From: a virus
Length of the DNA: 28,769 nucleotides
IMG/VR virus record: IMGVR_UViG_3300034027_000002
Span: 1-28,769 of that record
Strand: one strand, 5' to 3'
A program made the translations under genes and the position numbers. The notes under the pieces were generated by a model. It searched no databases and was not told the DNA's origin. It saw only the letters and a program-made list of their open reading frames with translations. Below are positions 2,121 to 24,160 of the stretch, in pieces (positions within the stretch are counted from its first letter, which is position 1; each line of letters opens with the position of its first letter).

Positions 2121-3887
2121 ATGAGTAAGTACGCAGCTAAAACCGGAAGAGTGCGCCGTTATGAGTCCGATGTCCAAAACAATGTTCCCATCGATCAGCG
2201 GCTTTTGCCAGTGTCATGCACGATTTACCTCTATAAAAAAGCGTTGCATGAGCTATTAGAATTTTGTTCTAAGTCTCTCCGGTTCGGTTCAGGGGTAAAA
2301 GTTCATTTCGGTAGCGATGACTTGACCCCTGAGAAGCTAACAGAAATTAAAGAGTGGTACTTCATGATCGATGAAGCCCACCCAGATTTTAATAAAATAT
2401 TCGCTTTGCCCACCTACTTGAGAACCCGGTATCTATCCCCTGCCGCCTTTAAAAATAGATTTGGGGACAACCCGTATTTAAAACATCGAATTATAACCGT
2501 TGCTGATTCGATGCAAGAAAACCAACCGGGCAAAGACTCAATCGAAGAATCATGGTACAGCTTCGAGGTTGCCTTGCAGCTTGGTTATGTTCCTATCGTT
2601 GACTTATCCCACCTAAGACCCGCTGGGACACCCTCAGGCTCAACCACAGCCGCTAAACAATTGATTGCTACTGGTCCGCTTGGAATGGGAGATGACCCCC
2701 GTAACCCAGAATCAGGGTCATTTGTGTCCATTTACGCTAGAATATTCGACTTTTTACGAAGTGGGGATATAGTTGCGCTGATGCAATTACTTGGGCAATT
2801 GAACCGAACACTATTACAAGGCAGAGAAAAAACGGGGATTATTTGCACCGGGATAGATTACGAGTCCCCGCACGTGGAAAGATATTTAAATTTCCCACTG
2901 ATGAAGCTGCTGGGAAGCCAGAAAAAAGCTATCAGAATCGATGAAGGTTTGTTAGAGTTTCCTGAACTAATGCAATTGATTTGTGCAAAAGTCAATAGTG
3001 AATCATTGTTTTTAGAGAAAAAATTACCTGGTGGTTTACTAAGTAATGTGTGTGGGGAAATTGCAATGTTACCCGAAGCAACATGCAACTTACAACACAC
3101 CAACGCCGGAATGATTGAAAAACCAGGGGATATCCCTCAAGCAATGGCTGAGGTTTCCTACGACTTGATTCAAAACTGGTTAACGTGGCGGGATAATGTT
3201 TCTCCCGATGTGGCAAACATTTATTTACCACTAGAGGATGATCGGCAAGTTGGTTTAGGTTGGATTGGTTGGGCTAATTTCATGGCTAACCAACAAGTTA
3301 CCTATTATGAGTTTGCCCACACCCTCAAAAACTTTTTAGATGAAGTAGAGCAAGGTTTTCCCAATATACGCGCCCCTAAAACCACAGCAGAGGAAATATG
3401 TATGAATTTGTATGTGGGGTACATCAGATGCAGCGAAATGGGAGAGGAATACGGTATTGATAGAATGTTCACAATTGCCCCTACTCAGTCACTATTTGCA
3501 ACTACCAAAGATATCAACGGGAATACATGCTCTCGCGGTATCGTTGCCCCATTCGCTAGACGTATAAGACGGTCTAGCGACAGTAAAAAATCACAATTCG
3601 TTTTCCACGGTAAAGAAATAGAAATTGCTTCTGAGGTGGGTAGTGATGTACATGAATTGTTACATGATCAATGGCAGCGTCTAATGAATTTAACAGGTAA
3701 AGCCCATACAATTACTTATGATTTATGGCATAATATCGACGTTAACTGGTTAACTTCATTTATTACTGAAATGAATTTAGTGACCACTTACTACAACTTT
3801 TCAAGTAGCTTGAATAATGATTATCTCGATAAGGGAAAAATTCAGCAACTTGATGTAAATTCAATGACTTGTGATTGTGCCCAATAG
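2121..3887 (+). CDS. nrdA: Class I ribonucleotide reductase large (alpha) subunit, compact divergent form
   Basis: It would reduce ribonucleotides to deoxyribonucleotides with the diiron partner encoded next. Visible RNR signatures, in order (588 residues from the ATG at 2121): HLRPAGTP then a TGPLG loop (164-188), the usual 'RPkG...GP' region; C242 in a predicted strand; N309-V-C311-G-E313, the active-site NxCxE motif with the thiyl cysteine; C322, the expected redox partner; R375-QVGLGWIGW, the usual RxIGLGxxG motif; APTQS (453-457), the phosphate-binding loop; Y557-Y558, the tyrosine dyad of class I radical transfer; and C584/C586 at the C-terminus for re-reduction. At 588 residues it is well below the usual 700-760 and lacks an N-terminal ATP-cone, so dATP feedback may be absent. 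The frame opens at a GTG at 2112, but AGGTG is better read as the ribosome binding site for the ATG at 2121. The tyrosine dyad and the neighbour argue against class II. Confidence 0.8.
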   Translation: MSKYAAKTGRVRRYESDVQNNVPIDQRLLPVSCTIYLYKKALHELLEFCSKSLRFGSGVKVHFGSDDLTPEKLTEIKEWYFMIDEAHPDFNKIFALPTYLRTRYLSPAAFKNRFGDNPYLKHRIITVADSMQENQPGKDSIEESWYSFEVALQLGYVPIVDLSHLRPAGTPSGSTTAAKQLIATGPLGMGDDPRNPESGSFVSIYARIFDFLRSGDIVALMQLLGQLNRTLLQGREKTGIICTGIDYESPHVERYLNFPLMKLLGSQKKAIRIDEGLLEFPELMQLICAKVNSESLFLEKKLPGGLLSNVCGEIAMLPEATCNLQHTNAGMIEKPGDIPQAMAEVSYDLIQNWLTWRDNVSPDVANIYLPLEDDRQVGLGWIGWANFMANQQVTYYEFAHTLKNFLDEVEQGFPNIRAPKTTAEEICMNLYVGYIRCSEMGEEYGIDRMFTIAPTQSLFATTKDINGNTCSRGIVAPFARRIRRSSDSKKSQFVFHGKEIEIASEVGSDVHELLHDQWQRLMNLTGKAHTITYDLWHNIDVNWLTSFITEMNLVTTYYNFSSSLNNDYLDKGKIQQLDVNSMTCDCAQ

Positions 3888-18189: not shown

Positions 18190-18215
18190 AATGTCCCACA
18201 AAATTAGTGGGACAT
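18190..18215. terminator. Repeated hairpin, copy 3, between convergent genes
   Basis: AATGTCCCAC (18190-18199) and GTGGGACAT (18207-18215) form the stem. It lies exactly between the convergent stops at 18186 and 18217, the expected place for a bidirectional terminator. No T-tract follows on either strand, so termination would depend on the stem itself or on a factor. Confidence 0.6.
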
Positions 18216-18739
18216 CACAATAAAAACATTGCAATTAAGCCGATTGCAGCCAATAAAATAACTAAACCCGCTACTAAGTTCTGATCGTCTACCTCATCGT
18301 ATTTAGGCTTCACAACCACAGCGGGTTTATTCCTGCGAGGGCGAAAAAATTTAGCCTCGGCTTCCTCCCATTGTGAAGTTGGCAAAACATATTCTTCCCA
18401 ACCCGCCGCTAACCGCCTATAAAAAGTTTCGTTGTTATACCTACCGCTTACTGGGTCTGTTATTCTACCCTTGGTTGGGTGATTTGTATATATCACTATC
18501 CAATTATCGCTGGCGTGCGCTTCGCCGTGATGTTGGGCGCATACCGGGAACAGATTAAACCCCGGTTTATCTTCCAGCCCCCCTTGAGTGTAGAAAGCGT
18601 GATGAGTTGTTTTTGCCACGTCGCCGCACAACACGCATCTTTTCCCCGTTAATGCTTTAGTAAACGGCGATAAGTAATCCTTAAAATCTTCTGAGTAACA
18701 ATCCTTGGACCATTCCGAATATTCTACCGCGCTTTTCAT
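18215..18739 (-). CDS. HNH nuclease-like protein with C-terminal membrane anchor
   Basis: 174 residues from the ATG at 18739 (AGG five bases before; a GTG at 18745 also opens the frame). Residues 35-75 form an HNH/zinc module: C35-V-L-C38, T-H46-H47-AFY, N62-LF and C67-AQH70-H71-GEAH75. The final 21 residues (NLVAGLVILLAAIG..., 154-174) are a single hydrophobic helix at the extreme C-terminus, so the protein would be tail-anchored with the nuclease domain in the cytoplasm. Between them is a basic and then acidic linker. Most phage HNH proteins are soluble homing or packaging nucleases; a membrane anchor suggests action at the inner membrane, for example on incoming DNA. It is a single-gene minus-strand unit, and operator site G almost touches its start. 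Catalytic activity is inferred from the motif only. Confidence 0.72.
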   Translation of the reverse strand: MKSAVEYSEWSKDCYSEDFKDYLSPFTKALTGKRCVLCGDVAKTTHHAFYTQGGLEDKPGFNLFPVCAQHHGEAHASDNWIVIYTNHPTKGRITDPVSGRYNNETFYRRLAAGWEEYVLPTSQWEEAEAKFFRPRRNKPAVVVKPKYDEVDDQNLVAGLVILLAAIGLIAMFLL

Positions 18740-18746
18740 ATTCACC

Positions 18747-21589: not shown

Positions 21590-21811
21590 ATGATTTATTT
21601 TGTAATTTGCAACAATTTAGACGGCGATAACTACTATTATGGCGTTGTTGAAGCAATCAACAGTGATCAAGCCCTACTTATTTACAAATCTATTAAAGGT
21701 AATTACCACGATGATGATGAATGTCTTGACGCTATACCGTTTAATTCGTTAAACATAACCACCCAATCCGTTTTAAGGGAACAATTTGGAATAGGAGGAT
21801 TTTACGTATGA
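21590..21811 (+). CDS. Small hypothetical protein
   Basis: 73 residues with no recognised family: MIYFVICNNLDGDNYYYGVVEAINSDQA suggests strand-loop-strand-helix, followed by an acidic loop (HDDDECLD) and a C-terminal IGGFYV. The ATG lies eight bases after a strong hairpin and has no Shine-Dalgarno sequence. It is the first gene of a short operon controlled by operator site H and overlaps the gp49-like gene by ATGA. Confidence 0.6.
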   Translation: MIYFVICNNLDGDNYYYGVVEAINSDQALLIYKSIKGNYHDDDECLDAIPFNSLNITTQSVLREQFGIGGFYV

Positions 21812-22134
21812 ATCAAACACCGGAAGAACTAATAAATAGTTTACTTGAATCACGATGTAATCAACTGCGGGTAACACGTCAAATGATAGATGACTTAATA
21901 GCATCTTCCCAAACCCAGGAACATATTTTTTGGGGAAAAGAGCTATTAGTTTCTTATCAACTTGAGTGTGGGTTTACTGTTACTGGTAGGGCGGCTTGTA
22001 TTGACCCTGATAATTTCGATATTGAAATCGGACGATTAGTCGCTGAGGAAAATGCTAAAACTCAACTGTGGCAATTAGAAGGGTATCGCCTTAATTGGGA
22101 TTTATACACTAGGGGCGTTTTAGTTCCTGACTAA
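21808..22134 (+). CDS. Phage gp49/gp66-family protein
   Basis: 108 residues. The segment CGFTVTGRAACIDPDNFDIEIGRLVAEENAKTQLWQLEGYRL (about 55-97) matches the family consensus 'nGFtVtGeSaCvdpenFd.EiGrkiA.e.A...iWpLEGYlL' of the phage gp49/gp66-like proteins (Phage_gp49_66). The family is widespread in tailed phages, but its function is not established as far as I know. It has the strongest ribosome binding site in the window (AGGAGG at 21793-21798, nine bases before the ATG) and is translationally coupled to the gene before it. A perfect 36-bp palindrome starts at its stop codon. Confidence 0.8.
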   Translation: MNQTPEELINSLLESRCNQLRVTRQMIDDLIASSQTQEHIFWGKELLVSYQLECGFTVTGRAACIDPDNFDIEIGRLVAEENAKTQLWQLEGYRLNWDLYTRGVLVPD

Positions 22135-22170
22135 GTAATTATGCCTAATTTTAAAATTAGGCATAATTAC
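22135..22170. repeat. Perfect 36-bp palindrome; right arm duplicated at 22714
   Basis: Two 18-bp arms (22135-22152 and 22153-22170) meet without a spacer: GTAATTATGCCTAATTTT and its complement. It starts one base after the stop of the gp49-like gene, so it may end that transcript. The right arm is repeated exactly at 22714-22731, in both places upstream of the same promoter block, so it is also likely to be a regulatory sequence. Confidence 0.75.
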
Positions 22171-22201
22171 TCATGTATATCTGTTAAAAGTGCGCTATAA
22201 T
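22153..22201 (+). promoter_or_regulatory. Promoter P1 of the TAAAAGTGCGC-TATAAT family
   Basis: A perfect -10 (TATAAT, 22196-22201) is preceded by TAAAAGTGCGC. The same 17-bp block occurs at P2 and P3. There is no TTGACA-like -35; instead a 22-bp element (22153-22174) lies ten bases before the block, at the same distance as in P3. This suggests activator-dependent expression. Confidence 0.6.
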
Positions 22202-22270
22202 TAAGATATAGGAAAGGGGAAGGATAGCGCCAACCACTCCTAAAAGGTTCAAATAATTTTCCCAAAAACC

Positions 22271-22299
22271 TTGCAAGATTGCTAAAAGTGCGCTATAAT
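22271..22299 (+). promoter_or_regulatory. Promoter P2 of the TAAAAGTGCGC-TATAAT family
   Basis: TTGCAA (22271-22276), 17 bp, TATAAT (22294-22299): a full sigma70-type promoter about 36 bases before the ATG at 22336. It shares 27 identical bases with P1 from TAAAAG onward but lacks the upstream 22-bp element. P1 and P2 together give the 22336 gene tandem promoters; the first transcript carries an extra leader of about 98 bases. Confidence 0.7.
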
Positions 22300-22335
22300 T
22301 AAGATATAGAGAAACACACAGAACCAAGAAAATTT

Positions 22336-22665
22336 ATGAACTGCATTGAAACTCGCCAAACGGCTTTAAGTTTAGCTAAAGAAAGCAAAACAGCGATCGC
22401 AGCGAAAGACTTAGAAAAGGTGGAAGTGTTGATAGGTAAAGCGGCGAACCTTTACGAATACGCTACAAAGTGGGAAAACTACTACAAGTACGAAGATACC
22501 ACCGAAGTAGACGAAAACGAAAAATATCCACCCGCCTGGTGTTTTGAAAAAGCTAGAGAGCGTTCCCACAACACCTTAGAAACCCTAGAATACTACTACT
22601 ACACACGCCAATCAGTTTTAGAAGCTAGAATCCAACGGAAAAGAGAAGAAAAACTAAATAAGTAA
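22336..22665 (+). CDS. Small helical hypothetical protein
   Basis: 109 residues, almost entirely helical and charged: helix about 5-48 (RQTALSLAKESKTAIAAKDLEKVEVLIGKAANLYEYATKWENYY), an acidic loop (EDTTEVDENEKYPP) and a long second helix ending in a basic tail (RIQRKREEKLNK). It may form a helical hairpin or coiled-coil dimer. I recognise no family. Two tandem promoters and a strong terminator make it a self-contained, probably strongly expressed unit, typical of small host-directed phage proteins. No good ribosome binding site is seen before the ATG. Confidence 0.65.
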   Translation: MNCIETRQTALSLAKESKTAIAAKDLEKVEVLIGKAANLYEYATKWENYYKYEDTTEVDENEKYPPAWCFEKARERSHNTLETLEYYYYTRQSVLEARIQRKREEKLNK

Positions 22666-22669
22666 ACCC

Positions 22670-22694
22670 AAAAGCCCCGCCCACCGGGGCTTTT
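22670..22694 (+). terminator. Rho-independent terminator
   Basis: AAAAGCCCCG (22670-22679) pairs with CGGGGCTTTT (22685-22694) around a five-base loop. It lies five bases after the stop at 22665. The stem is GC-rich and followed by T residues. Confidence 0.85.
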
Positions 22695-22713
22695 AAAATG
22701 GGAAAATATATAT

Positions 22714-22762
22714 AAAATTAGGCATAATTACTCATCGCAATTGGCTAAAAGTGCGCTATAAT
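22714..22762 (+). promoter_or_regulatory. Promoter P3 of the same family, driving a non-coding RNA
   Basis: The 22-bp element 22714-22735 is identical to 22153-22174 of P1, is followed by ten variable bases, then TAAAAGTGCGC and TATAAT (22757-22762). The predicted start is near 22768. No convincing coding frame follows on this strand before the terminator at 22955. Confidence 0.65.
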
Positions 22763-22767
22763 AGATG

Positions 22768-22985
22768 TATGAGGGGGAGAGGAAAGGCTTCCGGTTCACA
22801 TGTTCAAAGCTGATAACATCAAAAGAGTTTAGCCGCCAATTTTCGGTACACCGCGTTAAGTAAAACCGACCAGTTGTAGAGCAACCGCCGATTTTTAGAG
22901 AGTTTACAGACGTAGATAAAACCCTCAGTAATCCTCCACTACTCATGTGAGGCAAAACCCCCAATCCTAGGATCGGGGGTTTTTG
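22768..22985 (+). ncRNA. Probable structured non-coding RNA, about 215 nt
   Basis: This stretch has promoter P3 at its 5' end and a strong terminator at its 3' end, but no plus-strand gene. Possible helices: TGAGGG near 22770 with CCCTCA at 22922-22927 closing the molecule; ATGTT/AACAT around 22800-22819; a hairpin with GTTG/CAAC around the loop TAGAG (22874-22886) extended by TAAAA and TTTTA on the outside (22861-22897); and GTTTA/TAAAC at 22902-22922. I do not recognise an Rfam-type family; it is not tmRNA or tRNA. The length and closed shape loosely recall 6S RNA, but that is only a shape comparison. The secreted-protein operon ends at the same terminator from the other side. Confidence 0.5.
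22955..22985. terminator. Bidirectional terminator
   Basis: AAAACCCCC (22954-22962) and GGGGGTTTTT (22975-22984) form the stem, with an inner ATCC-TA-GGAT palindrome. A-tract and T-tract on opposite sides allow use on both strands: for the non-coding RNA (+) and for the exported protein genes (-), whose last stop is at 22987. Confidence 0.8.
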
Positions 22986-22986
22986 T

Positions 22987-23703
22987 TTAAGGGCGGTTGA
23001 ATGTTACTGTGCCGTTACCATTAAATGTCGATGTCATACCGTAAGGACCACTATCATTGTTTTGAGTATTACCATTGATAGTTTGCCAATTGTTATTTAG
23101 GTCTTTATACCGCCAATTTAAAAATTGAAGTCCATTAGTGTAATTATAGACAGAAGATTGTTTTTCAATCCCCGTGGTAGCATATTTAGAGTAATTTAAC
23201 TGACCAAAGATAGTTAAATCTTGGATATATTGGTCATCCAGTAATATGTACCATGTATTATTTGCCCAAGATATATGGTAGTTATTCCTACCACTATTAG
23301 CAGGGATATTTCCGTTGTAATTTATTTGATAAAACCTGCATTTATCAGTACAACGATTGTAAGCGTAAAAATGACCTTTGTAATTAGGTATAGCTGTAGT
23401 AGGTGAGTCCCCGTTGTAGTTTCCAACAGTGCCATAAATTTTCCCATGTTCGATCCATTCACAACGGTTCAAAACATCGGTAGAACAGTCCGAACCACCG
23501 GGATAAACCCATAAGTCTTGTAAAATAGCAGAGTTGCTATTTTGTGGTCCTGTAAGATCGGCAATAGTCCCTACCGTTACAGAGCTTCCTCGATTTTGGG
23601 GCAAAAATGTTTGTGTCGCGTACCCGCGTTGAGCCAAACTAACGTCAGGTGTAACCGCAATAGCGGCGATCGCAGCAACCGCACCTAATAAAATTTTCTT
23701 CAT
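22987..23703 (-). CDS. Exported protein with signal peptide, unknown function
   Basis: 238 residues from the ATG at 23703; the frame is open further upstream to 23769, but the signal peptide defines this start. MKKILLGAVAAIAAIAVTPD then SLA-Q is a clear Sec signal with likely cleavage after Ala24. The mature part (about 214 residues) is rich in Asn, Tyr, Trp and Gly, predicted beta, with two close cysteine pairs (CSTDVLNRC and CTDKC) suited to disulfides. No lipobox, enzyme motif or family is recognised. It follows the other exported protein gene by four bases. Secreted non-virion proteins are unusual in siphoviruses and suggest cell-surface alteration or defence against other phages; alternatively they could be virion surface proteins, but a signal peptide argues against that. 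Confidence 0.72.
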   Translation of the reverse strand: MKKILLGAVAAIAAIAVTPDVSLAQRGYATQTFLPQNRGSSVTVGTIADLTGPQNSNSAILQDLWVYPGGSDCSTDVLNRCEWIEHGKIYGTVGNYNGDSPTTAIPNYKGHFYAYNRCTDKCRFYQINYNGNIPANSGRNNYHISWANNTWYILLDDQYIQDLTIFGQLNYSKYATTGIEKQSSVYNYTNGLQFLNWRYKDLNNNWQTINGNTQNNDSGPYGMTSTFNGNGTVTFNRP

Positions 23704-23707
23704 AGTT

Positions 23708-24160
23708 TTAAGGTTTTGGGATGTTGGTATATGTAGTATCAGCCGGATCACTTTCAATATAAGAGACAAATTCTATTCCGGTTTCAGCGTCAATAATAGA
23801 TGTAACGCTAGCCTTATTAAATTTACCTCTGGTTGTCTCTAAGCCTTCTGGAAAATCAACCACTACTTTATAAACTTTACGATTTGGGTTGATAGTTACT
23901 ACTCGTTTTAAATCGATTTCTTGTTCGACATCACCCATATTTTTCAACTCGGTACTTTTTATTTTTCCCTTGTTGAAACGTTTTTCGGTGACTTCCTCTT
24001 TAGTTTTTAGTTTCTTATCCGCCCCGGTTTCCTTGTAAACTTCTGCGTGTTTTGGTGCGTTTTCTTCTTTGATAGGTTGATTCTCTTGGGCGATTACACT
24101 AACCCCGAACAACACCCCTATAAAAGTAACAACGCCACCTAAGATATATTTTCGTAACAT
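23708..24160 (-). CDS. Second exported protein with signal peptide, unknown function
   Basis: 150 residues from the ATG at 24160; the frame opens at 24220 but that would run through the repeated hairpin. MLRKYILGG followed by VVTFIGVLFGVSVIAQ is a Sec-type signal or an N-terminal membrane anchor, with a possible cut after VIA. The next 60 residues are highly charged and Lys/Glu-rich (HAEVYKETGADKKLKTKEEVTEK), probably an extended helix. A small beta domain follows (VVTINPNRKVYKVVVDFPEG...TGIEFVSYIES). No family is recognised. It is the first gene of a two-gene minus-strand operon with 22987-23703 and is divergent from the tape measure gene. Confidence 0.68.
   Translation of the reverse strand: MLRKYILGGVVTFIGVLFGVSVIAQENQPIKEENAPKHAEVYKETGADKKLKTKEEVTEKRFNKGKIKSTELKNMGDVEQEIDLKRVVTINPNRKVYKVVVDFPEGLETTRGKFNKASVTSIIDAETGIEFVSYIESDPADTTYTNIPKP

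Follow-up and report, generated by a model that had tools for sequence, protein, structure and literature searches.

The window, that is, the whole 28,769-nt stretch analyzed here (IMG/VR virus record IMGVR_UViG_3300034027_000002, positions 1 to 28,769), encodes a ribonucleotide reductase, a dCTP deaminase, a helicase, a terminase, tail proteins, a tape measure and a DNA polymerase A. ARAGORN revealed no tRNA and no tmRNA in the window, and the capsid protein gave 0 matches in a search of 50,697 phage records. The HIP1 octamer GCGATCGC occurs at 12 sites (4035-27224) against 0.1 expected, an excess that points to a cyanobacterial host. The region under study contains a palindrome, three promoters, a small protein gene and a predicted RNA gene, organized as follows:

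22134..22171, no strand assigned: 38-bp palindrome that directly follows the stop codon of ORF 21808-22134, the right arm of which is the upstream element of P1
22152..22201, plus strand: promoter module P1, consisting of the upstream element, TAAAAGTGCGC and TATAAT (22196-22201), without a good -35 at 17 nt
22271..22309, plus strand: promoter P2, with a -35-like TTGCAA (22271-22276), a 17-nt spacer and TATAAT (22294-22299)
22336..22665, plus strand: gene of a 109-residue orphan protein with three predicted helices, downstream of P1 and P2
22667..22697, no strand assigned: bidirectional terminator hairpin, recognized from the sequence, that splits the protein gene from P3
22713..22762, plus strand: promoter module P3 of the RNA gene, with TATAAT at 22757-22762
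22769..22986, plus strand: predicted non-coding RNA gene (class A) of about 215 nt, its ends placed by the -10 element and the terminator
22954..22983, no strand assigned: terminator hairpin of the RNA gene, with 15-nt arms (93%), shared with the convergent gene 22987-23769 on the minus strand

The 17-mer TAAAAGTGCGCTATAAT is identical at 22185-22201, 22283-22299 and 22746-22762, exactly where an earlier sequence-only reading had placed three copies of one promoter module; the hyphen within the motif as first written was formatting, the two halves being contiguous with 0 bases between. No further copies exist in the window with up to 3 mismatches allowed, and three copies were found in 0 of 100 dinucleotide shuffles (0.17 expected). 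P1 and P2 agree at 97% over 30 nt, and P1 (22152-22201) shares 86% identity with P3 (22713-22762) over 50 nt. The upstream element described as common to P1 and P3 is also present, as the right arm of the palindrome recurs 5' of P3 at 22713-22732. The palindrome itself is real and perfect (19-nt arms, 100%), but spans 38 bp instead of the 36 bp originally given. As RNA it would form a 17-bp A/U-rich hairpin (fold z -6.8), and this A/T-rich element could be an operator, an RNA hairpin, or both.

A recognizable -35 is found in P2 (TTGCAA) but in neither P1 nor P3, which fits activator-dependent promoters that would use the shared upstream element. The core AAAAGTGCGCTATAAT alone is present in 15 IMG/VR stretches, mostly directly 5' of reading frames and without the RNA. 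It sits just 5' of ORFs in unrelated viral contigs (IMG/VR loci L077-L091), with TTGACA upstream in several, and for this reason would be a good -10 region generally. The window stands out for the threefold local repetition together with the common upstream element, not for the core alone.

P3 precedes a stretch of ~215 nt closed by the strong terminator hairpin at 22954-22983, as had been claimed. This unit is insulated by terminator hairpins on both sides, and the next gene is convergent. Judged from its sequence, it has the promoter, terminator and insulation expected of an autonomous trans-encoded small RNA gene; as shown below, it also has a conserved secondary structure and no conserved reading frame.

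Blastn search of 22100-23000 against phages gave two matches, in Dolichospermum phage Dfl-JY23 and Anabaena phage Elbi (E 4e-11 and 2e-9), and both fall in intergenic DNA that carries no annotation. The matched part, window 22757-22866, covers the first ~105 nt of the RNA. A search from Elbi added a third carrier, A-1(L)/A1, at the equivalent position, where an RNA of ~215 nt starting with ATGAGGTGAGAGG is predicted at OR360731 12137-12355. In all three phages the RNA lies directly behind the tape-measure gene. Compared to six A-1-like genomes (N1, YongM, YongM2, Elbi, A-1(L) and Dfl-JY23), the RNA is the sole DNA similarity of the whole window at E<=0.01. Protein similarities are restricted to the dCTP deaminase, the helicase, a peptidase domain and ORF 18215-18745, and no similarity was detectable between the terminases, capsids and tail genes of the window phage and those of the six genomes. 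The retention of the RNA in phages with unrelated capsid and tail genes suggests either inter-phage transfer or strong constraint, and also suggests a real RNA part used in infection.

The comparative set for the RNA consists of the window and the A-1-like phages, with the window phage's own kin left out. A covariance model found one copy per genome in exactly four phages (E 4e-24 to 2e-29), the next-best match having an E of 0.5. Pattern scans of IMG/VR with conserved stretches of the RNA returned nothing or chance coding matches, and a pattern scan of 84,980 genomes yielded no further homologues. Against Rfam 15, the window had no match at the gathering threshold of the covariance-model score; 22700-23000 and the N1 and Elbi loci gave sub-threshold chance matches only. 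RNase P-like words in the RNA were dropped, as they had no support from Rfam.

Alignment of the 5' half of the RNA revealed stems that vary and loops that are conserved. The RNA is predicted to contain five hairpins ahead of its terminator:

22770..22798, plus strand: H1, UGAG/UUCA plus an inner helix, in which one inner pair is changed on both sides (U-A versus G-C)
22800..22819, plus strand: H2, stem AUGUU/AACAU enclosing the loop CAAAGCUGAU, with two pairs changed on both sides
22843..22869, plus strand: H3, stem UCGGU/ACCGA enclosing ACACCGCGUUAAGUAAA, with a conserved loop and two-sided changes in four pairs (three outer, one inner)
22873..22885, plus strand: H4, GUUG/CAAC, assigned by inspection and different in sequence in each phage
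22898..22926, plus strand: H5, with the loop motif ACA..(n)UAG, also found in class-B RNAs just before the terminator

The loop of H2 is identical in three of the four phages. All 76 cells of the H1-H3 alignment (19 pairs in four phages) hold standard pairs, with 7 of the 19 pairs changed on both sides, and 0 of 500 shuffles reached such conservation; when the partners were slid as a control, pairing fell to 22-41%. Covariation analysis of homologous regions, which the sequence-only reading had proposed, has in this way revealed compensatory changes, resting on few events because the four distinct class-A sequences include three from one phage group. Folded alone, the window RNA does not exceed shuffles in stability (z -1.2 and 0.1), and its minimum free energy fold does not reproduce all of the comparative hairpins; the RNAs of Elbi and Dfl-JY23 do exceed shuffles (z -2.5 and -2.7). 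An H-type pseudoknot between GCUGA in the H2 loop and a downstream UUAGC is plausible but is not claimed, as A-1(L) would need a bulge. No reading frame is shared among the four class-A members, each frame being interrupted in at least one of them, and a coding frame, the explanation named beforehand as fatal to an RNA gene, does not account for the conservation.

Each of the six A-1-like genomes has an RNA between its tape measure and hub genes, behind a locus-specific 42-nt promoter, which occurs once in N1, YongM and YongM2 and twice in Elbi, A-1(L) and Dfl-JY23. This promoter is confined to the RNA locus and absent from shuffled genomes. The unit driven by the second copy is a further RNA in Elbi and a 115-residue protein in A-1(L) and Dfl-JY23. 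The 70 nt upstream of the window RNA share 49-53% identity with the A-1-like promoter in the register anchored on the RNA (p<=0.003). An assignment of the A-1-like promoter to a genome-wide family of 8-24 copies proved wrong, as those sites appear to be a separate palindrome. The palindrome TTTTAGAGTGACTCTAAAA is found throughout A-1-like genomes (e.g. locus L005 3234-3252 and L015 3294-3312), with 11-27 copies per genome in Elbi, A-1(L), Dfl-JY23, YongM and YongM2 and 0 in N1.

A longer RNA, termed class B and expected to span ~350-400 nt in N-1 or YongM, follows the A-1-like promoter in N1, YongM, YongM2 and the second unit of Elbi:

locus L005 (Elbi), 3348-3660: class-B RNA
loci L017 and L018, 3061-3440: class-B RNA
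locus L019, 3060-3465: class-B RNA

Class B is predicted to form a pseudoknot, in which a hairpin loop pairs with a downstream stretch, and both sides change together in the four phages (UUGGU/ACCAA, CUCUUU/AAAGAG, CCUA/UAGG and CCGAU/AUCGG). The true partners outperformed all 23 other assignments (1 of 24 permutations), a result reached by 10 of 20000 shuffles, and a covarying hairpin is present in addition. The promoter is common to classes A and B, as is a 3' module that includes H5. In the class-B RNAs of YongM (L017 3300-3420) and YongM2 (L018), the H5 module is tandemly duplicated. GenBank annotates small hypothetical proteins in the class-B region, with lengths and positions that vary by phage; we read them as spurious.

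The 109-residue protein had been proposed to form a co-regulated pair with the RNA. Promoter duplication at the RNA locus does recur in Elbi, A-1(L) and Dfl-JY23, but the second copy there drives a second RNA or an unrelated 115-residue protein, and the window protein has no homologue in phage records by tblastn. It also lacks PHROG and PADLOC matches (0 each) and has a sub-threshold Pfam match only. Its AlphaFold2 model (pLDDT 88) has no significant structural match, and a proposed homology to A1L_14 was rejected, as no homology was found. We regard neighbouring units under similar promoters as a real feature, which the upstream element common to P1 and P3 suggests would be switched on together, and a conserved functional pair as the weaker, partly supported part of the claim.

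Repeated putative promoter/stoperator motifs, and the lack of tRNA genes, were reported for Nostoc phages A-1 and N-1 by Chenard et al. 2016 (PMC4916379). These are the same phages and the motif is likewise a repeated intergenic one; however, the many-copy repeats at the RNA locus seem to correspond to the palindrome TTTTAGAG..CTCTAAAA, which may be the published motif, whereas the RNA promoter is separate and locus-specific. The word "noncoding" is absent from the text of that paper, which reports no such RNA, and we found no description of a non-coding RNA at the A-1-like locus in open-licence PMC papers. The RNA family appears new to the literature. In size it resembles CfrI of cyanophage S-PM2, an antisense RNA of ~225 nt between psbA and a homing endonuclease gene (PMC12197685), but CfrI is antisense, whereas the class A RNA is a separate unit among structural genes. 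It resembles the trans-encoded phage small RNAs (PMC12197685) more broadly, being a compact intergenic unit with its own promoter and terminator and no conserved ORF; it differs from them in that it showed no Rfam relation, is structured with conserved loops, and is common to unrelated cyanophages. Compared to one cyanobacterial-type CRISPR repeat, that of phage N-1, the RNA showed no clear similarity beyond shuffles, such as a repeat mimic of the Racr anti-CRISPR type would be expected to show.

Altogether, homologues in otherwise unrelated phages, compensatory changes, the lack of a shared frame, a dedicated promoter and terminator and the lack of an Rfam family strongly support the earlier suggestion of a new non-coding RNA from P3. 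From its sequence features, the P3 unit is very probably a self-contained phage gene whose product would be a structured, non-coding RNA of ~215 nt, one of a family common to the A-1(L)/Elbi/Dfl-JY23 group. The best overall explanation, which we consider likely, is a structured RNA gene that would be transcribed and act in trans on a target.

Phage "morons" are autonomous units between late genes, common to unrelated phages and usually protein-coding. The class A RNA unit is likewise autonomous, placed between late genes and present in unrelated phages, but would encode RNA. We tentatively propose an "RNA moron" that acts through its loops on a conserved host factor. The dedicated strong promoter would produce the RNA during infection, and the folded RNA would display the conserved loops CAAAGCUGAU, ACACCRCGUWAAGUAAA and ACA..UAG on short hairpins. 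A conserved factor in the filamentous-cyanobacterial host may then be the target of the RNA in trans, the simplest role being that of a decoy or regulator that binds a protein; we infer such action of the RNA from its autonomy, its conserved loops, and its sharing among phages of filamentous cyanobacteria with unrelated particles. The cassette would be exchanged among unrelated phages. A broader version is a little more doubtful, namely a mobile modular RNA family, with the hairpins of class A, the pseudoknot of class B and a promoter and 3' module in common, whose RNA-only cassettes would move among unrelated filamentous-cyanobacterial phages and target a host factor that is conserved, for instance part of a defence system.

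The main rival, somewhat less probable again, is regulation by base pairing, in which the exposed loops would bind mRNAs of the host or the phage. Conserved loops on varying stems would suit such a role, and many known phage small RNAs are antisense (reviewed in PMC12197685), but the longest antisense match in the phage's own record is 13 nt, equal to shuffles. A role in cis, as a leader or antitermination element instead of a free RNA, is improbable: a small gene with its own promoter copy does come next in A-1(L) and Dfl-JY23, yet a strong terminator closes the RNA, the next gene in the window is convergent, and the downstream genes vary among phages. Slightly less probable still is a virion or packaging component like the phi29 pRNA; this would explain why, in both phage groups, the RNA has tape-measure, hub or capsid genes as neighbours, but the groups share the RNA without similarity in terminases or capsids, and the text of the A-1(L) tail-structure paper does not mention an RNA (PMC10966104). 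It is very unlikely that the repeats merely reflect an ordinary strong promoter that was recently duplicated on the spot, with an unremarkable product: unrelated contigs do have the 16-mer core ahead of ORFs, but the product of P3 is conserved, with covariation, and A-1-like phages also have a duplicated promoter at the RNA locus. Equally unlikely is conservation of a ~32-residue peptide (22765-22863, MYEGERKGFRFTCSKLITSKEFSRQFSVHRVK). Its frame is open in the window and in Dfl-JY23, ending at a shared stop and differing between the two by 3 nt in length, but it lacks an ATG start in Dfl-JY23, is disrupted in Elbi and A-1(L) through frameshifting length differences, and shows mismatches by codon position of 8/6/10 between the window and Dfl-JY23 without third-position bias, the changes preserving base pairs instead.

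Returning to the structured RNA gene, all sequenced A-1-like Nostoc/Anabaena phages would carry an overlooked gene of this kind, in part hidden under erroneous annotations of tiny hypothetical proteins, and a phage with unrelated capsid and tail genes would share one class of it with them. To our knowledge, few phage RNAs are conserved beyond one phage group with their function not known. As A-1(L) grows on Anabaena PCC 7120, the RNA is open to direct testing, and its target could reveal a host vulnerability or a cyanobacterial defence pathway.
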